64,000 nt of DNA from contig NZ_CP118631.1 of assembly GCF_028993635.1 (NCBI RefSeq), positions 1,736,001-1,800,000 of the forward strand, in the 5' to 3' direction. Under the pieces are notes generated by a model. The model was not told the origin of the DNA, searched no databases, and worked only from the letters and a program-made list of their open reading frames with translations. The translations under genes and the position numbers were made by a program. Positions within the stretch are counted from its first letter, which is position 1; each line of letters starts with the position of its first letter. Shown here piece after piece: positions 25,080 to 46,599 of the stretch. Origin of the DNA: Mucilaginibacter sp. SJ (GTDB lineage: Bacteria; Bacteroidota; Bacteroidia; Sphingobacteriales; Sphingobacteriaceae).

Positions 25080-26984
25080 TTAATCTGTTACCAAAGGAAG
25101 GCTAAAACTGAAGGTGCTGCCCCTGTTTATTTCTGAATGTACCCAAAGCCTGCCGCCGTTAAACTCAATAAGCTCCTTGCATAAAAACAAACCTATGCCG
25201 GTGCCTTTCTCGCCGGAAGTGCCTGTGGCTGTGTATTTCGTATTAAGGTTAAATAACTTGCCAAGTTTTTCTGCAGGAATCCCGTTGCCTGTATCGTTAA
25301 CACTGATCACCAACATGCCTTCATCAACGGTGCTCAATAAACTAACAATACCGTAATTGCCCGTAAACTTAATAGCGTTGCTAACCAGGTTACTCAAAAC
25401 CACTTTTACATGTCGTTCATCAGCCTGTACGCACATCCCGGGTAAAGCCATGTTTTCAAACCTGATATTTTTTTGTTGAAAAAGGTAACTAAAGATCCTC
25501 CCGATTTCAATGCCAATTAAATAAATGTCGACTGCCGATGCCTCAAGATTAACGCCTTTGATCTGGCTGCCTGCCCATTCAAGCAGGTTTGAAAGGGTTA
25601 ATTCGGCACCCTGTACTACCGGCTCTATTTCCTTCATCAGGTCCTGAACTTCATTATCGCTTAAAACACGGGTATTGTATAAACGTAATATGGAATTCAG
25701 ATTAGCAAGCGGTGTACGCAAATCATGCCCTATTACAGCCAGTAACTTATCTTTAAGATTATTAATATTTGCCAGGTTCACCGATTGTTCTTCTATCAGT
25801 TCTTTTTGAATTAACAGGGCTTTATGCTGCTTACGCATCCGGTTATTTAAAACCCGTTTTTGTTTATAAAGGTAATAGGTAACCGACAAAGCCAATATTA
25901 CAACCAGCAATGAAATAAGGAGTGTAATAATTATAACCTTTTGCAAATGAATTTTTTCTCGGTATTGCCCTGCCTTTTGCTCAATAGCGGCAATGGCATT
26001 AAGACGGCTGTTGAGCTCAAAATAACCCTGTATAAGCTCGGTACTTTTACGCTTATTGGCAGCACTAAGACTATCAAGCGCCTGGGTAAATTTTTTTTGA
26101 TAGGCTAACGACTGCACCATATCATGCTTTTGCTCAAAGCTGTAGGCTATGGTTTTATAAGCCGACGAGATGCCATCCATAACACCAATGCTATCGGATA
26201 AAGCAGCACCTTTTTTTGCAAGGTTAATGGCTTTGTCAAACTGGCTTAACGAATTGTAAATAACAGCACGTTCAATAAATGAGATAGCCCTTAAACGCTT
26301 ATTATTAACAACATAACTCATTTGCAGGGCAGTGTCTGAATAAGCGACGGCCTGTTGATATTGTCCCTTTAAACGATAAGCGTTAGCCAGCCGGCTGTAT
26401 AATATACATATCGCGGGCTGGTCATTTACCGTACGGCTAAGCTGCATGGCAAGTTTGGCAAGCGCAATGCCTTTATCATATTGTTTAAGCCTGGCGTAAA
26501 CAAATGAACGTTCGTTATAAACTTCGGCAAGCATTTTTGGATCATGGCCTGCAAAGCGGGTGGCTATGTCTAAATTTTTTATGGCCTTGCTATAGTTTTG
26601 CAAATCTGTATAAGCCCTGCCCATGGAGCTATAACAGTGGGCCAGTAACAGCGGCTTGTTTTTGGGCAGATAATTTAAAGCCGAATTAAAATAAAACAAA
26701 CTGATAGGATAGTATGACTGCGACCAGTAAACATGCCCTAAATTTAAAAAAGCGGCGCCCGTACCTTCATTATATTTCATTTTTTCCGAAAGCAGTAGGG
26801 CATGCTCAGCTCTTATCCTTGCCTCGTAGGGGGCACCAACATAGGTTTCCTCAACAAGTTTGTTAAGGCTGTCGATGGTTTTGATTAGTGACGGCGATTT
26901 TTTCGGCTCAATTCCGCTTGCTTTTTGCGCATAAACAGTACTATGCATCAATAACAGCAATAATAAACCAAAGGGCCTTGTCAT
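25080..26984 (-). CDS. TPR-containing sensor histidine kinase
   Basis: 634 residues. A signal peptide (MTRPFGLLLLLLMHSTVYA) is followed by TPR repeats (about 60-330; for example AAFLNLGHVYWSQSYYPISL and AHCYSSMGRAYTDLQNYSKA), a membrane segment (VIIITLLISLLVVILALSV, about 350-370), a coiled linker, and a HisKA domain with H-box VIGHDLRTPLANLNS (His near 420). A HATPase domain follows, with NLVSNAIKFTG, VNDTGNGIPAEKLGKLF and GTGIGLFLCKELIEFNGG. The protein ends without a receiver. No response regulator is adjacent; the lone receiver at 37360 is 10 kb away. The TPR part would lie in the periplasm and sense a protein or peptide (inference). Confidence 0.92.
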   Translation of the reverse strand: MTRPFGLLLLLLMHSTVYAQKASGIEPKKSPSLIKTIDSLNKLVEETYVGAPYEARIRAEHALLLSEKMKYNEGTGAAFLNLGHVYWSQSYYPISLFYFNSALNYLPKNKPLLLAHCYSSMGRAYTDLQNYSKAIKNLDIATRFAGHDPKMLAEVYNERSFVYARLKQYDKGIALAKLAMQLSRTVNDQPAICILYSRLANAYRLKGQYQQAVAYSDTALQMSYVVNNKRLRAISFIERAVIYNSLSQFDKAINLAKKGAALSDSIGVMDGISSAYKTIAYSFEQKHDMVQSLAYQKKFTQALDSLSAANKRKSTELIQGYFELNSRLNAIAAIEQKAGQYREKIHLQKVIIITLLISLLVVILALSVTYYLYKQKRVLNNRMRKQHKALLIQKELIEEQSVNLANINNLKDKLLAVIGHDLRTPLANLNSILRLYNTRVLSDNEVQDLMKEIEPVVQGAELTLSNLLEWAGSQIKGVNLEASAVDIYLIGIEIGRIFSYLFQQKNIRFENMALPGMCVQADERHVKVVLSNLVSNAIKFTGNYGIVSLLSTVDEGMLVISVNDTGNGIPAEKLGKLFNLNTKYTATGTSGEKGTGIGLFLCKELIEFNGGRLWVHSEINRGSTFSFSLPLVTD

Positions 26985-40394: not shown

Positions 40395-40763
40395 ATGAGC
40401 GATACTATTAAAAAGAAAACAAACAAATCCGTTGGTAAAAACATCCGGGCATTACGCCATCAGCATGGATGGAGCCAGGAAGATGTGGCTAACCGTTTGG
40501 GCATCTCTATCCCCGCATTTTCAAAAATTGAAACAGGAGTAACCGATATAAACCTGTCGCGTCTTGAACAAATAGCCAATATTTTTGATGTAAACGTGGT
40601 GAATATACTGGCCCTCGATAATGAAGAAGCTGATATGAGACCGTCGAGTTTAAGCGTTGCACAGAAAAAACTGATAGATCGCGAATCAGAAATCGCCAGT
40701 TTACAGCGTAAGGTAATATTGCTTTATGAGGAGTTGCGCAATAAAGCCAGTGTAGCTATCTAA
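40395..40763 (+). CDS. XRE-family HTH transcriptional regulator
   Basis: 122 residues. A lambda-repressor-like HTH spans about residues 13-68: NIRALRHQHGWSQEDVANRL, GISIPAFSKIETGVTDI, NLSRLEQIANIFDVNVVNIL. The C-terminal 50 residues form a short coiled-coil (KKLIDRESEIASLQRKVILL), likely for dimerisation. Cytoplasmic DNA-binding protein. The upstream inverted repeat at 40289 may be its operator. No adjacent target is proven; the next genes are a small hypothetical and a convergent TPR protein. Confidence 0.92.
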   Translation: MSDTIKKKTNKSVGKNIRALRHQHGWSQEDVANRLGISIPAFSKIETGVTDINLSRLEQIANIFDVNVVNILALDNEEADMRPSSLSVAQKKLIDRESEIASLQRKVILLYEELRNKASVAI

Positions 40764-41308: not shown

Positions 41309-42739
41309 TTAAACTCTCGGCGGGTTATGCAGCATGTCGCTCATCTCGATGATCTTTTCATCAATTTCAGATACGCATTTATCCATCATATCCAAACATT
41401 CGGCCTGGTCAACCAGGCCTTCTTTTTCAAGGTTGATCAAACCGCGCAATGTAGCTATAGGCCCCCTGATTTGATGCGACAGATATGACGAATGCTCAGA
41501 AAGCTTTTTATTTTTTAACTGCAGATCCTTTGTACGTTCATCAATGATCTCCTCAAGATGATGATTTATCCTATCAAGATTATCTTTTTGCCGGGATACC
41601 TCACCATTTAGCAGTGTAAGCTGTGCATTGGTTTTGGCTTTACGTTTTACATTGCTGATCAGCAAACCAATTACTACAAGCATCAAACCCGCAACTACAG
41701 TTACTGCCCAAAATTTCGACCGGTCGTAAGCCTGGCGCTCTGCAATTCTTTCGTTCTCTTTCAGTTGTTCTTCCTGCCTGCGTTTGGCCTCAACCAGGTT
41801 CATTTGCGCCGATACGTTGGTTTTGTAAGTAACACTATCCTGGGTATATATTTCCCTTAACAAATTTACCGCCCGGGCGAAGTTCTTTTTGTTATATTCC
41901 AGTTCGTATGTAGTGTATTTATAATCGTAGTCAAGCTTAGGGTCCTTTACCAACTGTGTATAGGCGGTCCCCTCCTGCACCATCTTTTCCGCATTTTTAA
42001 AATCACCTTTTGTCATGTAAAGCGCTGCCAGCGTAAGGTCAACACTGGCTACCGACTCGTTCAGGTCACGTGCTTTTGCACCGGCATTAGCCTCCAACAG
42101 TAAACCCAGGGCCTTATCATAGTCCTTAAGTTTAAAATAAATAACACCACGGTTTTGCAAACATTGGATCAGATTTACTGAGTCGCTCAGTTTCTGAAAT
42201 ATGGGAAAACTTTTGTCATAAAACTTAAGCGCCATATACAGGTTATTTTTACGCGTGTAAACGTTGCCTATATTTAAATACAATGAGCCTACCAATTTGG
42301 TATCATTAATTTTTTGTGCTATCTCCAGCGATCGGTTAAGATACGTAAGTGAGCGTTCGTAGTCGTGGTCACGAAACAGGATGCCGATATTATTATAAAC
42401 CTTGGCCTCGCCCCTCAGGTTATTGTTGCGGGTAAAAGATGAAAGGGAGTTCAGATAGTTTTCAATAGCCTTTTCAGGCTGATCAAGATAGTATTTACCA
42501 ATACCTATAACACGGTAAGCTTCTGCAATACCATCAATATAATTGAGTTTGGTAGATAGCTTCAGCGCCTTGGTGGCATCTTCAACGGTTTGCTCCGGAT
42601 TTGTCAGCCTGTTTGAATAAGCGCTGGTATTTAGGCTTATTACCTCATTAGTATCTTTCGCAGCAACATCAATTATATCATTCGCGTATACCGACAGCGA
42701 TAATAAAAAGAATAATATGAATGTGCCGATTTTTTTCAT
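41309..42739 (-). CDS. TPR membrane protein with HisKA-like segment but no ATPase domain
   Basis: 476 residues. Signal peptide MKKIGTFILFFLLSLSVYA; periplasmic TPR repeats (about 50-330; AKVYNNIGILFRDHDYERSL, GSLYLNIGNVYTRKNNLYMA); one membrane segment (FWAVTVVAGLMLVVIGLLIS, about 350); a coiled-coil; then a dimerisation-helix segment with SHQIRGPIATLRGLINLEKE, which aligns with a HisKA H-box (His near 419). The protein ends about 55 residues later, with no HATPase domain. It therefore cannot autophosphorylate by itself. It could be a phosphotransfer protein or a receptor relaying to another kinase. It lies head-to-head with the DLGSAD peptide genes (569-bp gap). Confidence 0.85.
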   Translation of the reverse strand: MKKIGTFILFFLLSLSVYANDIIDVAAKDTNEVISLNTSAYSNRLTNPEQTVEDATKALKLSTKLNYIDGIAEAYRVIGIGKYYLDQPEKAIENYLNSLSSFTRNNNLRGEAKVYNNIGILFRDHDYERSLTYLNRSLEIAQKINDTKLVGSLYLNIGNVYTRKNNLYMALKFYDKSFPIFQKLSDSVNLIQCLQNRGVIYFKLKDYDKALGLLLEANAGAKARDLNESVASVDLTLAALYMTKGDFKNAEKMVQEGTAYTQLVKDPKLDYDYKYTTYELEYNKKNFARAVNLLREIYTQDSVTYKTNVSAQMNLVEAKRRQEEQLKENERIAERQAYDRSKFWAVTVVAGLMLVVIGLLISNVKRKAKTNAQLTLLNGEVSRQKDNLDRINHHLEEIIDERTKDLQLKNKKLSEHSSYLSHQIRGPIATLRGLINLEKEGLVDQAECLDMMDKCVSEIDEKIIEMSDMLHNPPRV

Positions 42740-43308
42740 TAAAACACTTCTACGTTCTGTTGGGGTGAAAGTTATAAAATAATGCTGAATTATATTTAAT
42801 GTTAAGAATAAAAAACGTTGTGGAAAATTATTTTCATATGTTTTTTCCTCCTATTAAAAACATATCTATATTTGCATTGTTAAATATCTGAAATACAATA
42901 TATTAAATACAAAAACATCCTATACAATATCACTCCAAACAAGAATGCAAGCAAATACAATAATATTGCAACATATATCTTGAGATTTACAATATAATTA
43001 TAGTTTGTATATCAAATAAATGAAATAATGTGAAAATCGTGCAATAAATTGTATACCATACAAGCGAGTAATCCGGATGATATTACATTTAAAATTAGTA
43101 ATTTAACGCCATAATTAACAGTGTAAAAATACGAAACAGAGAATCTTTTTTAAAATTTAAAACAAAACAGAGTTTTTAAAAAACAGAGAGTAAAATCAGA
43201 CTTTTAAAATATTTGTGATAAGCTTTAAATAAGCTTGACGGATTTTAATAAATATCAAATATCGTATTAATTTAAAAAATAGAATATTAAATACAATAAT
43301 TAATCAAT
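42740..43308. promoter_or_regulatory. Long AT-rich intergenic region between TPR sensor and peptide genes
   Basis: 569 bp, mostly A and T, with no ORF. A perfect TAnnTTTG box (tatatttg, 42867-42874) points toward the peptide genes, but no TTG is at the right distance. An operator-like AAGCTT-taaat-AAGCTT (43220-43236) lies 73 bp before the first peptide gene. Both divergent promoters must be here. A long untranslated leader is possible. Confidence 0.4.
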
Positions 43309-43470
43309 ATGAAAAAAGCAGTGTTTTTTGTACTCCTTACCATAGGCGCCGGAGTGCTCTCATCGTCATCAGTTTTGTCATCATCGGCAAAAAAAGACGT
43401 ACAGCCAACAGCTGTCAATTTCAACAAAACGCCGGCAGGTTTTAAACGCGACCTGGGAAGCGCCGACTGA
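43309..43470 (+). CDS. DLGSAD-tail exported small protein 1
   Basis: 53 residues, not on usual gene-length cut-offs. ATG at 43309. Signal peptide MKKAVFFVLLTIGAGVLSSS, then a Ser-rich stretch and a short linker (KKDVQPTAVNFNK), ending PAGFKRDLGSAD before TGA. The tail KRDLGSAD is identical to those of the next two genes and to every unit of the repeat protein at 43926. It is the first gene of a tandem set spaced 35-72 bp apart and likely cotranscribed. I do not recognise a described family; a peptide precursor is the best inference. Confidence 0.8.
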   Translation: MKKAVFFVLLTIGAGVLSSSSVLSSSAKKDVQPTAVNFNKTPAGFKRDLGSAD

Positions 43471-43521
43471 AATCCAATTAAATCATACAGAAAAATTCAA
43501 CATCGATAATATAACACGATC

Positions 43522-43665
43522 ATGAAAAAAATAATCACCATCGCTTTAGCAGTTCTGTTCACCGGGGCCATTTCATCCTGTAAAAAGGAAAGCCCAAAAG
43601 TTGAGTTTGCTAACCTTCACTTATTCACAACCGGTTACAAAAGAGACCTGGGAAGTGCTGACTGA
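43522..43665 (+). CDS. DLGSAD-tail small lipoprotein 2
   Basis: 47 residues. ATG at 43522. The leader MKKIITIALAVLFTGAISSC ends in a lipobox-like ISSC, so the mature form may be lipid-anchored through Cys. Linker KKESPKVEFANLHLF; tail TTGYKRDLGSAD, then TGA. Conserved tail shared with its neighbours; the linker is not. Follows gene 1 by 51 bp. Confidence 0.8.
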   Translation: MKKIITIALAVLFTGAISSCKKESPKVEFANLHLFTTGYKRDLGSAD

Positions 43666-43700
43666 TTTATCTATTCAAGATCAATAAAACATAAAACAAC

Positions 43701-43853
43701 ATGAAAAAATTCATCCTCATAACAACAGTAGTACTTAGTGCAGGTGCATTATCATCAGCTACAAACAAAAATGAAAACAAACCGAAAATGGTGGTTGCAC
43801 CAGTGAACTCGTTGACAACCGGTTTTAAAAGAGACTTAGGCAGCGCCGACTAA
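43701..43853 (+). CDS. DLGSAD-tail exported small protein 3
   Basis: 50 residues. ATG at 43701. Signal peptide MKKFILITTVVLSAGALSSA; Lys/Asn-rich linker (TNKNENKPKMVVAPVN); tail LTTGFKRDLGSAD, then TAA. The TTG-aromatic-KR context is shared with protein 2. Codons for the tail differ from those of proteins 1 and 2 (for example gacttaggcagc against gacctgggaagc), so the identity is held at protein level. Confidence 0.8.
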   Translation: MKKFILITTVVLSAGALSSATNKNENKPKMVVAPVNSLTTGFKRDLGSAD

Positions 43854-43925
43854 AAAACAGACAATAACAAACAAGAGATTTAATAAACAAAAAATATTTA
43901 CGTACCCCCCACATTAAAAAACATC

Positions 43926-44879
43926 ATGAAAAATTTAACACTAATAGCAACTTTAGCATTAAGCGCCATATTATCGACCGCCACATTAGCAAATGCCGCT
44001 AACGGCCCTCAACCAAAACGTGATTTAGGTTCTGCTGATGCTCGCGGTCCTCAACCAAAACGTGATCTTGGTTCCGCTGATTTTGCTCGTGGCCCTCAAC
44101 CAAAACGAGATCTTGGTTCCGCTGACTTCGCTCGTGGTCCTCAACCAAAAAGAGATTTAGGTTCTGCTGATTTTGCCCGTGGCCCTCAACCAAAACGTGA
44201 CTTAGGTTCTGCTGACTTCGCTCGTGGTCCTCAACCAAAAAGAGATTTAGGTTCTGCTGATTTCGCTTTCGGTCCTCAGCCAAAACGTGACTTAGGTTCT
44301 GCTGACTTCGCTTTCGGTCCTCAGCCAAAACGCGACTTAGGTTCTGCTGATTTCGCTTTCGGTCCTCAGCCAAAACGCGACTTAGGTTCTGCTGATTTCG
44401 CTTTCGGTCCTCAGCCAAAACGCGACTTAGGTTCTGCTGATTTCGCTTTCGGTCCTCAGCCAAAACGCGACCTTGGTTCTGCTGACTTCGCTTTCGGTCC
44501 TCAGCCAAAACGTGATCTTGGCTCTGCTGATTTCGCTATGTCTGGTCCTGGTCCGAAACGCGATTTGGGTTCTGCCGACTTCGCTATGTCTGGTCCTGGT
44601 CCGAAACGCGATTTAGGCTCTGCTGATTTCGCTATGTCTGGTCCTGGTCCAAAAAGAGATTTAGGCTCTGCTGATTTCGCTATGTCTGGCCCTGGTCCAA
44701 AAAGAGATTTAGGTTCTGCTGATTTCGCTATGTCTGGTCCTGGTCCAAAAAGAGATTTAGGTTCTGCTGATTTCGCAATGTCTGGTCCTGGTCCAAAAAG
44801 AGATTTAGGCTCTGCTGATTTCGCGATGTCTGGTCCTGGCCCAAAAAGAGATTTAGGTTCTGCTGATTTTATGGCATAA
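43926..44879 (+). CDS. Exported protein of 19 tandem PKRDLGSAD units
   Basis: 317 residues. Signal peptide MKNLTLIATLALSAILSTAT followed by LANAAN (AxA cleavage), then nothing but repeats. There are 12 units of GPQPKRDLGSAD with spacers AR, FAR, FAF or FAMS, and 7 of GPGPKRDLGSAD with spacer FAMS, the last ending FMA. Units are 14-16 residues; the core KRDLGSAD is invariant in all 19. It looks like a multicopy precursor with a dibasic KR before each copy, as in fungal pheromone precursors, but a repetitive surface or adhesive protein is also possible. No transmembrane segment, anchor or sorting domain is present at the C-terminus. Antisense frames here are artefacts of the repeat. Confidence 0.9.
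   Translation: MKNLTLIATLALSAILSTATLANAANGPQPKRDLGSADARGPQPKRDLGSADFARGPQPKRDLGSADFARGPQPKRDLGSADFARGPQPKRDLGSADFARGPQPKRDLGSADFAFGPQPKRDLGSADFAFGPQPKRDLGSADFAFGPQPKRDLGSADFAFGPQPKRDLGSADFAFGPQPKRDLGSADFAFGPQPKRDLGSADFAMSGPGPKRDLGSADFAMSGPGPKRDLGSADFAMSGPGPKRDLGSADFAMSGPGPKRDLGSADFAMSGPGPKRDLGSADFAMSGPGPKRDLGSADFAMSGPGPKRDLGSADFMA
44004..44876 (+). repeat. Tandem coding repeat: 42-, 45- and 48-bp units
   Basis: One 42-bp unit, ten 45-bp units (44046-44495), seven 48-bp units (44496-44831) and a final 45-bp unit. Three consecutive 45-bp units (the 8th-10th) are identical in DNA, while the first five differ at several third positions. This suggests recent local expansion under strong protein conservation. 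Confidence 0.92.
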
Positions 44880-44938
44880 TCACCAACTCTCCATTATAAA
44901 ATCATATGTTATAAACTAAAATTTGAATAGTTAACAAC

Positions 44939-45106
44939 ATGAAAAAATTCATCATTGCGGCAGCGGTTTTAATAGCTACAGGCCTTACCGCTGTATCATT
45001 AACTCATAGAGCGCCTAAACAGGAGGGTAAAATAAAAGTCGAGAAAGTTGAGTTCGCCACTAAGGCTGTTAATTCACCAAAATCAGATCTGGGCTCAGCA
45101 GATTGA
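44939..45106 (+). CDS. DLGSAD-tail exported small protein 4 (fifth gene of the set)
   Basis: 55 residues. ATG at 44939. Signal peptide MKKFIIAAAVLIATGLTAVS; basic linker (APKQEGKIKVEKVEFATK); tail NSPKSDLGSAD, then TGA. It is the only member in which the KR dibasic is replaced by KS, so it would not be cut by a Lys-Arg-specific protease after Arg. Follows the repeat gene by 59 bp. Confidence 0.78.
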   Translation: MKKFIIAAAVLIATGLTAVSLTHRAPKQEGKIKVEKVEFATKAVNSPKSDLGSAD

Positions 45107-45228: not shown

Positions 45229-46599
45229 ATGCAGCACATAAAGCAATATGTTGAGCAAAACAAGCAGCGTTTACTTGATGAGTTATTTGACCTGTTACGT
45301 TTGGCATCGGTTAGTGCCGATCCAAAATACAAACCTGAAGTATTAAAAACTGCCGATTACGTAGCAGCAAAGCTCCGCGATGCCGGGGCCGATAATGTTG
45401 AAATATGCCAAACCGCCGGCTACCCTATTGTATACGGCGAAAAGATCATAGATGCTTCCAAACCTACAGTATTGGTTTATGGGCACTACGACGTACAACC
45501 GCCAGATCCGTTGGAACTGTGGAAAACACCTCCCTTCGAACCAACTGTTAGGGATGGAAAAATATATGCCCGCGGTGCCTGCGATGATAAAGGGCAATTT
45601 TACATGCATGTAAAAGCCTTTGAGCTGCTGATGCAAACCGATACCCTTCCATGTAATATTAAGTTTATGATTGAGGGCGAAGAAGAGGTTGGCTCATCGA
45701 ACCTGGGCATCTTTGTGAAAGCCAATAAAGAAAAGCTGAAAGCCGATGTGGTGTTGATCTCCGATACCTCGATGATCAGCATGGAGCACCCTTCGCTTGA
45801 AACCGGCTTACGTGGCCTCTCTTACCTCGAAGTTGAAGTAACCGGCCCAAACCGCGACCTGCATTCGGGCGTTTACGGCGGCGCCGTGGCTAACCCTATC
45901 ACCATACTGGCCCAAATGATCGCCAGCCTGCATGATGAAAATAATCATATTACCATCCCAGGCTTTTATAATGATGTAGTGCCGCTTAGCGAAGCAGAAC
46001 GCAATGCTTTGAACAGTGCACCTTATGATGAAGCCGGGTACAAACAAGACCTTGATGTAGCCGAGCTTTGGGGCGAAAAGGGCTACAGTACTTTCGAGCG
46101 CACAGGCACCCGCCCTACCCTTGAGCTAAACGGTATTTGGGGCGGCTATATCGGCGAAGGCGCCAAAACGGTGCTGCCTTCAAAAGCCAATGCCAAAATC
46201 TCTATGCGTTTAGTACCCAACCAAACGTCAGATGCTATAACCAAACTGTTTACCGACCATTTTTTAAGTATTGCGCCTCCCTATGTTAAGGTTAAGGTAA
46301 CTCCACATCATGGCGGTGAACCGGCTGTAACCCCAACCGACAGCGTGGCTTACCGTGCCGCACAAAAAGCCATCGCCGAATCATTTGGTAAAGAGCCTAT
46401 CCCAACCCGGGGTGGGGGCAGTATCCCTATTGTTGCTTTGTTTGAAGCCGAGCTTGGTTTAAAAACTGTATTGATGGGTTTCGGGCTTGATAGCGATGCC
46501 CTGCACTCGCCTAATGAGAAGTATGATATTTACAATTATTATAAAGGCATAGAAACCATTCCGTTGTTTCACAAATACTTTGCGGAGTTATCAAACTAA
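45229..46599 (+). CDS. M20 family dipeptidase/metallopeptidase
   Basis: 456 residues, cytoplasmic (no leader). Metal-binding motifs of the M20 family: VLVYGHYDVQPPDPLELWKT, GKIYARGACDDKGQFYMHV, MIEGEEEVGSSNLGIF with the catalytic Glu pair, DTSMISMEHPSLETGLRGL, and C-terminal TRGGGSIPIVALFEAELGL and DALHSPNEKYDIYNY. The dimerisation domain is in the middle (LEVEVTGPNRDLHSGVYGGA). Members cleave dipeptides or beta-alanyl peptides. It lies 122 bp downstream of the DLGSAD genes, same strand; a degradative role toward peptide products is speculation. Confidence 0.92.
   Translation: MQHIKQYVEQNKQRLLDELFDLLRLASVSADPKYKPEVLKTADYVAAKLRDAGADNVEICQTAGYPIVYGEKIIDASKPTVLVYGHYDVQPPDPLELWKTPPFEPTVRDGKIYARGACDDKGQFYMHVKAFELLMQTDTLPCNIKFMIEGEEEVGSSNLGIFVKANKEKLKADVVLISDTSMISMEHPSLETGLRGLSYLEVEVTGPNRDLHSGVYGGAVANPITILAQMIASLHDENNHITIPGFYNDVVPLSEAERNALNSAPYDEAGYKQDLDVAELWGEKGYSTFERTGTRPTLELNGIWGGYIGEGAKTVLPSKANAKISMRLVPNQTSDAITKLFTDHFLSIAPPYVKVKVTPHHGGEPAVTPTDSVAYRAAQKAIAESFGKEPIPTRGGGSIPIVALFEAELGLKTVLMGFGLDSDALHSPNEKYDIYNYYKGIETIPLFHKYFAELSN

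Follow-up and report, generated by a model that had tools for sequence, protein, structure and literature searches.

The receptors of the RRNPPA quorum sensing systems of Bacillota (Rap-Phr, NprR-NprX, PlcR-PapR and AimR) carry helix-turn-helix (HTH) or Rap effector domains. In excerpts of PMC9765709, these receptors are described as cytoplasmic, systems with several precursors or several peptide copies per precursor are termed 'chatterers', a single propeptide holds up to six copies, and 'eavesdroppers' are receptors that have no peptide gene. Analysis of a 64,000-nucleotide stretch of the Mucilaginibacter sp. SJ genome (NZ_CP118631.1, 1,736,001 bp–1,800,000 bp), here called the window, revealed a locus in Bacteroidota that resembles these systems in having adjacent short precursors, predicted to be exported, and a candidate receptor with tetratricopeptide repeats (TPR). 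Five neighbouring genes on the plus strand (43309-45106) encode predicted exported peptides with 23 copies of the tail DLGSAD in total, and they lie divergent from a gene on the minus strand (41309-42739) that encodes a 476 aa TPR-HisKA protein. The tails are likely ligands of this predicted membrane sensor, with which they would form a peptide-receptor signalling system; we put the probability of this reading at roughly two in three. It is proposed because copies of the tail occur in unlike precursor bodies, because array and sensor are linked across the family, and because tail and sensor covary. Unlike in the RRNPPA systems, the receptor is predicted to be membrane-bound with a periplasmic TPR domain and a C-terminal HisKA domain, the host belongs to Bacteroidota and one precursor holds 19 copies. 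Our best reading is that the locus would function in the manner of RRNPPA quorum sensing without belonging to that family, since RRNPPA receptors are cytoplasmic and have other effector domains.

All five open reading frames (ORFs) of the array had a basic start followed by a hydrophobic stretch, as in a Sec signal peptide, in agreement with the original prediction, which had described five consecutive plus-strand genes with signal peptides; these features, and the lipobox-like ISSC-KKE of short precursor 2, were read from the sequence only. Short precursor 1 (53 aa, 43309-43470), short precursor 2 (47 aa, 43522-43665) and short precursor 3 (50 aa, 43701-43853) ended in KRDLGSAD (at 43444-43467, 43639-43662 and 43827-43850 respectively), and the last precursor (55 aa, 44939-45106), which has a different body, ended in KSDLGSAD (45080-45103). 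DLGSAD thus stood directly before the stop codon in all four short ORFs (47-55 aa), three of them with KRDLGSAD, as had been stated. The repeat precursor (317 aa, 43926-44879), fourth in gene order, had a signal peptide followed by the 19 predicted copies of KRDLGSAD (44016-44867) in units of 14-16 residues, and its short FMA end (..SADFMA) makes the tail internal. A 169-aa antisense frame (43999-44508, minus strand) was open across the repeat ORF and is likely a by-product of the repeat composition. The 19 copies were spelled in 11 DNA versions, and the tail serine was encoded by AGY in three of the tails in the window and by TCN in 20. As AGY and TCN are not one synonymous step apart, this argues for selection on the tail at the protein level, which had been proposed from the letters of the window.

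The 6.82-Mb genome contained 25 matches to the degenerate pattern D-[LF]-G-x-A-D, all but one of them on the same strand; 23 were within the locus and the remaining two were in frames of 12 and 48 codons. The reversed control pattern matched once. A homology search with the repeat ORF scored 7,995 candidates, none of them at E <= 0.001, and Pfam and NCBIfam scans of the five peptide ORFs gave nothing over any curated cut-off. The Phr and PhrK families of NCBIfam reached 14.4 bits (cut-off 25) and 16.9 bits (cut-off 35) and covered the first 19-25 residues only. Neither an Rfam scan at the gathering threshold nor a tRNA scan gave a match. Short precursor 3 had homologues in 13 other proteins; GFKRDLGSAD formed the end of 11 of these, and the other two (P0013 and P0014) were without the tail. 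Sorting by the type IX secretion system (T9SS) or of sortase type involves a C-terminal sorting domain or hydrophobic helix; the C-terminal residues of these peptides are hydrophilic and no helix or domain follows the tail. Copy number is low in the tandem precursors Phr3T and Phr105. In excerpts of PMC11343458, these exported precursors of Bacillus phages each yield several mature pheromones. They differ from the array described here in their phage hosts and their Rap receptor.

The tail varied between species. Among 77 Mucilaginibacter loci there were 44 versions of the commonest D-ended octapeptide, of the type K-x-x-[LVIT]-[GSA]-x-[AGS]-D, so the statement that the core never varies held for the window genome and its near relatives and not elsewhere. 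K was at -8 in 72 of the loci, and all 77 had L, V, T or I at -5, G, S or A at -4 and A, G or S at -2; D at -1 was set by construction. Relatives had tails without KR, such as KHNTGSSD, KNNLATAD, KGTVGGAD and KTVTGTGD. The dibasic KR site, for which fungal pheromone precursors had been cited as a parallel, is therefore not universal and does not establish fungal-style cleavage, the recurrent feature being K at -8. The yeast alpha-factor precursor has a signal sequence, tandem peptide copies, spacers and basic sites, and it is processed by Kex2-type cleavage and recognised by a G protein-coupled receptor; the order of signal sequence and tandem copies is shared with the repeat precursor, but that system is eukaryotic and KR is not conserved across relatives here. 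Loci of other genera mostly ended in W, Y or M followed by D, the -2 residue in 15 loci being W (nine loci), M, Y, C or G. Cores were set by hand in 13 of the 77 Mucilaginibacter loci and in one of the 15 other-genus loci; L194, L199 and L207 were dropped from the core set as they had no suitable D-ended core, and two further other-genus loci were cut.

Within a locus the tails agreed. Pairs of precursors with unlike bodies (603 pairs from 59 loci) had an identity of 0.76 over the last eight residues and 0.17 over the preceding eight, against 0.51 and 0.11 for pairs from different loci, and the tail was more alike than the preceding residues in 59 of 59 loci. The tails of the first and the last precursor agreed at 0.686 (59 loci), compared with 0.532 +- 0.016 when the loci were shuffled. 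Precursors of lipoprotein type and of non-lipoprotein type had their last two residues in common at L193 (WD) and L204 (YD). Array length was free to vary between species, up to about 37 tail copies by a loose pattern that gives 24 for the window, where the true count is 23, and a whole array can consist of one to eight near-identical lipoprotein-type ORFs. At L160, L162 and L343-L347, Mucilaginibacter loci whose sensors are more divergent, the arrays were reduced to one or two precursors; one of these was typically lipoprotein-like (with SSCTKE.. or a comparable stretch) and had a motif in its interior, for example LGTGDGGVERPGKP. The amplification in tandem may have arisen later.

The lipobox counts bear on another explanation, in which the system surveys the envelope, as NlpE/Cpx and RcsF/Rcs do: the small lipoproteins would report on Sec and lipoprotein traffic, and the sensor would detect their tails only on accumulation in the periplasm. 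A lipobox-like motif was found in 50 of the 56 short precursors of other genera, the arrays of one to eight near-identical lipoproteins fit this explanation, and the sensor is predicted to face the periplasm. Only 104 of the 370 short precursors in Mucilaginibacter were lipobox-like, however, and arrays of about 37 copies with species-specific tails are unexpected for a housekeeping reporter. We regard this explanation as unlikely, and favour signalling by the tails through the adjacent sensor.

The linkage between array and sensor was followed in related genomes, with genus and family membership taken from the labels of the genome collection. Among close protein matches, the named ones belonged to Mucilaginibacter, of the family Sphingobacteriaceae. 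The original prediction hung on the presence of the tail in related genomes, and the narrow KRDLGSAD-like pattern was indeed found in 18 of 149 genomes of the genus, one of which (G045, locus L070) was an off-locus chance match; the reversed control pattern had no match in those genomes. The variable form of the tail was carried by far more genomes than this narrow form. At the first 16 array-bearing loci the array followed the start of a divergent homologue of 41309-42739 in every case, and the gene for an M20 peptidase lay beyond the array except at L058 and L059, where the contigs end inside the array. The sensor had a match in 138 of the 149 genus genomes (116 of the 117 of good quality) and, in a sample of the family, in 105 of 251 genomes and 11 of 25 genera. 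Among the 53 matching genomes of other genera, G233, G243 and G279 had only a longer frame (608-621 aa) and do not count as carriers of the short sensor. The locus was read in 105 sensor-bearing genomes, comprising 85 of the 138 from the genus and 20 of the 53 from other genera (ten genera). An array adjoined the divergent sensor in 101 of the 105, two had no peptides and two were cut by contig ends. The pairing was thus present in Mucilaginibacter and in nine other genera of the family, leaving out the cut locus L188, and the array-sensor locus, which extends over the family, is a larger observation than the one first stated.

Small ORFs of exported type were found beside the sensor at 95 of the first 97 loci (94 by filter and L128 by eye); the other two ended 336 and 583 bases past the sensor, and one of them (L188) contains the beginning of a lipoprotein-like ORF. 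Eight further genus genomes were read as a second batch; six had peptides and two had none (G038 and G134), and the loci of these two look as 'eavesdropper' receptors would. In G056 there was a second, partial sensor match (a 399-aa frame, L340) with neither an H-box nor peptides seen. Contigs ended inside or beside the array at L058, L059, L112, L117, L123, L129, L144, L188 and L195, and runs of N were present inside or beside it at L060, L063, L064 and L072. The repeats seem to break assemblies, so that arrays are probably under-reported and the small genes often unannotated. From the genomes that lacked a sensor match (11 in the genus, 146 in the family sample), 20 were chosen, namely G137 and 19 from other genera, and no array-type ORF was seen by eye in the ORF lists of the 1.44-1.5 kb upstream of the M20 gene. 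In G137, a Mucilaginibacter genome, KKDIGNGDFQVA was fused to the end of an XRE gene on contig 136 (L327), in an ORF that ends ..MAKRDKKDIGNGDFQVA just upstream of the M20 gene; this fused tail is apparently a remnant or deletion, or a misassembly across repeats.

Tail and sensor also varied together. Across the 77 Mucilaginibacter loci, the predicted periplasmic part of the sensor had a mean pairwise divergence of 0.48, against 0.15 in its cytoplasmic part. Tail distance was correlated with the periplasmic domain given the M20 peptidase (partial r 0.53, 55 loci, permutation p 0.001), whereas the correlation with M20 given the periplasmic domain was 0.015. Thinning to 42 loci gave 0.42 for the domain and -0.006 for M20, and the addition of other genera (70 loci) gave 0.42 and 0.16. 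With the fast-changing body of the last precursor as the clock (25 loci picked by pattern from the 77), the values were 0.74 for the domain and 0.05 for the body, or 0.71 and 0.08 after thinning to 12 loci. Automatically picked cores pointed in the same direction, with a partial r of 0.42 given the cytoplasmic part (77 loci) and 0.37 (94 loci); these cores are partly wrong (L071, L104-L108, L156, L160-L162 and L199), and the M20-clock test used the hand-corrected set.

The agreement of the tail with the sensor domain argues against two further explanations. The precursors could be secreted structural or adhesive material, the tail serving for interaction or sorting and the TPR protein doing no more than regulate or handle it, for which the low-complexity G/P-rich repeats and the freely varying array length would speak. 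That the tail follows the sensor domain, and that unlike short precursors keep it while their preceding residues differ, makes this improbable. Alternatively, the tail could be a tag by which a periplasmic protease degrades or processes proteins, with an incidental link to the sensor. It is C-terminal in the majority of precursors (of 456 ORFs counted, 325 were closed, at least 40 aa long and had the D-tail at the end; both counts are approximate as the filter admits chance ORFs, such as single junk ORFs in L061, L107 and L135), but 19 internal copies in one protein, and the linkage to and covariation with one gene, leave a tag with hardly any likelihood.

The sensor itself, the candidate receptor for the tails, had a signal peptide and a TPR region (about residues 26-338) that is predicted to lie in the periplasm, followed by a single transmembrane stretch at about 341-363, a coiled coil and HisKA. 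The signal peptide and transmembrane stretch were read from sequence and alignment, and the residue numbers taken from the alignment and model start at the second residue (the first Met is left out). Pfam matched only TPR families and HisKA, the latter at 26.4 bits, just below the cut-off of 26.9, and no match to a HATPase domain was found in the window sensor. All 97 collected sensors, that of the window included, were 463-518 aa and too short for an ATPase domain, and 30 aligned sensors stopped just after HisKA. Two-component histidine kinases combine HisKA with HATPase, and the sensor is without this combination. The candidate phosphorylation site His421 was invariant in the 30 sequences. 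Ahead of the first TPR match lay the signal peptide and one short helix, and no HTH or Rap three-helix effector domain. FimS, a TPR sensor kinase of Bacteroidota, has a layout of signal peptide, TPR, transmembrane helix and HisKA; the window protein is similar in domain order but lacks the ATPase domain and is accompanied by a peptide array. FimS matched residues 85-379 of the sensor below threshold (66.8 bits, cut-off 600). TPR-containing membrane sensors are common in Bacteroidota, and we know of no ligand of such a sensor. A word search of open-licence literature found no described peptide-based signalling system in Bacteroidota, listed no paper on the system of this locus and gave no occurrence of DLGSAD, a weak negative as most subscription papers and preprints lie outside that literature.

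A wider search across the class revealed sensor matches at E <= 1e-40 in 38 of 395 genomes, 30 of them outside the family and mostly in frames of more than 560 aa. Six of the frames outside the family were 498-525 aa, and the four that were read (L216, L217, L219 and L223) encode TPR proteins that have a different H-box of the NAHxLRAPxAxxLGL type and are too short for an ATPase domain; their available flanks contained no peptide array. Kinase-less TPR-HisKA proteins may be a wider type in Bacteroidota.

An AlphaFold2 model of the sensor from 92 sequences had a mean pLDDT of 86 and a pTM of 0.60. The top Foldseek matches were the TPRs of LGN and kinesin light chain (KLC), with Rap3T-pheromone at ranks 48-49. 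VIA-align scored LGN at 25.8, RapF with its inhibitory peptide at 23.9, RapJ with CSF at 23.5, apo NprR at 22.7 and NprR-NprX at 22.6, followed by the TPRs of APC/C and Tom71 (about 20-21) and by MalT, PilF and OGT (about 19-19.5). The match lists were filled by TPRs, among them LGN, KLC, APPBP2, TSK, Rap and NprR, and the structures of many that ranked highest had been solved with a bound peptide. The modelled domain thus resembles peptide-binding TPRs including Rap-Phr and NprR-NprX, a likeness of fold that shows no function. Arg75 and Asn116 were invariant in the 30 aligned sensors, and Asn115, Asn155 and Asn195 nearly so; Asn at a clamp-type position is common in TPRs. In Rap, a conserved Asn holds the peptide backbone (excerpt of PMC3601965). 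A carboxylate clamp, in which the TPR groove grips the C-terminal Asp, was considered and is not claimed, given how common such an Asn is in TPRs and that many tails are internal.

Several observations weigh against the tails being ligands of the sensor. Given M20, the cytoplasmic part also remained correlated with the tail (0.24, p 0.02, 55 loci; 0.16, p 0.06 when thinned), so the signal is not wholly specific to the periplasmic part. The sensor domain also changes at a higher rate than M20. Phylogeny is not retained in Mantel-type permutations, and their p-values are optimistic; the weight rests on the contrast between the domain and the clocks and not on p-values. The TPR matches are generic and the best is LGN, not Rap. 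The H-box of the sensor reads HQIR and, with the catalytic kinase domain missing, phosphotransfer is unproven. The peptides of L194, L199 and L207, all in other genera, are not D-ended, and the two precursor types of L192 differ at the penultimate residue (SGMD and ASWD). Residues follow the D in Mucilaginibacter loci with more divergent sensors (GK, GNPNLN, DGGVERPGKP); together with the internal copies in the window, this indicates that a free C-terminal carboxylate is not essential unless the peptide is trimmed. Finally, G038 (L342) and G134 (L338 and L339; three sensors) have a sensor without a recognisable peptide.

If the tails do signal through the sensor, Sec would export the precursors, some of which would be lipidated, and proteolysis would free, or anchoring display, a segment of about eight residues with an acidic end. 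This segment may bind the concave groove of the periplasmic TPR superhelix and thereby alter the coiled coil and HisKA dimer across the inner membrane. Because the sensor has no ATPase domain, a partner kinase or response regulator encoded elsewhere would be needed to act with it. With tails that differ between species, signalling would stay private, as it does with pherotypes, and tandem copies would raise the peptide dose; the peptide might either leave the cell (quorum sensing) or stay in the envelope (autocrine signalling). A released or displayed peptide acting as signal, toxin or tag had been suggested before the sensor gene was recognised as a partner; it remains the best-supported idea, with the signal among those options, and 41309-42739 had been missed. 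More tentatively, and at slightly less than even odds, the locus would represent an undescribed class of cell-cell communication, in which Sphingobacteriaceae send out private peptide pheromones, made from tandem precursors that hold as many as dozens of copies, and detect them at the inner membrane with a periplasmic TPR receptor that has no kinase domain, while ligand and receptor diversify fast and together. If this is true, RRNPPA quorum sensing would have a transmembrane counterpart in a Gram-negative group. Candidate ligand and receptor lie side by side, and the dozens of species with differing tails and matching domains form a natural experiment.

The genes around the array bear on a last alternative, in which the peptides are toxic or antimicrobial to kin and the TPR protein provides immunity or control. 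Predicted export, species specificity, multiple copies and a linked partner gene would all suit a toxin. Against it stand the short length, hydrophilic character and conserved acidic end of the tails and the HisKA domain of the partner; moreover, neither an export ABC transporter nor a maturation enzyme (of the type acting on ribosomally synthesised and post-translationally modified peptides) was recognised by eye among the neighbouring window ORFs, only some of which were scanned against family libraries; we consider a toxin very improbable. Between the sensor start and the first peptide gene lies a divergent intergenic region of 569 bp (42740-43308, 22% G+C), the corresponding length being 520-578 bp in 14 loci. 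Windows of 20 bases with more than 85% conservation were confined to its sensor-proximal part (42740-42899), and a scan of the region with a Bacteroidota promoter consensus gave no match. The conserved neighbours included a helicase, an XRE regulator and the M20 peptidase. The M20 gene (45229-46599, plus strand), on the other side of the array, is a conserved flank for which no part in the system is claimed: it was found in 20 of the 20 searched genomes without a sensor match and, given the sensor domain, it did not follow the tail (0.015 in 55 loci; 0.16, p 0.06 in 70 loci), so that a working role for it is not supported. The XRE regulator (40395-40763) remained near the sensor in Mucilaginibacter loci. 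It was rejected as a general output partner because of its position in other genera: in the 18 sensor-bearing genomes searched there, its best match lay either on a different contig or no closer to the sensor than about 88 kb. A second TPR-transmembrane sensor protein of 634 aa (25080-26984, minus strand), with a full kinase domain by eye, was also encoded in the window.
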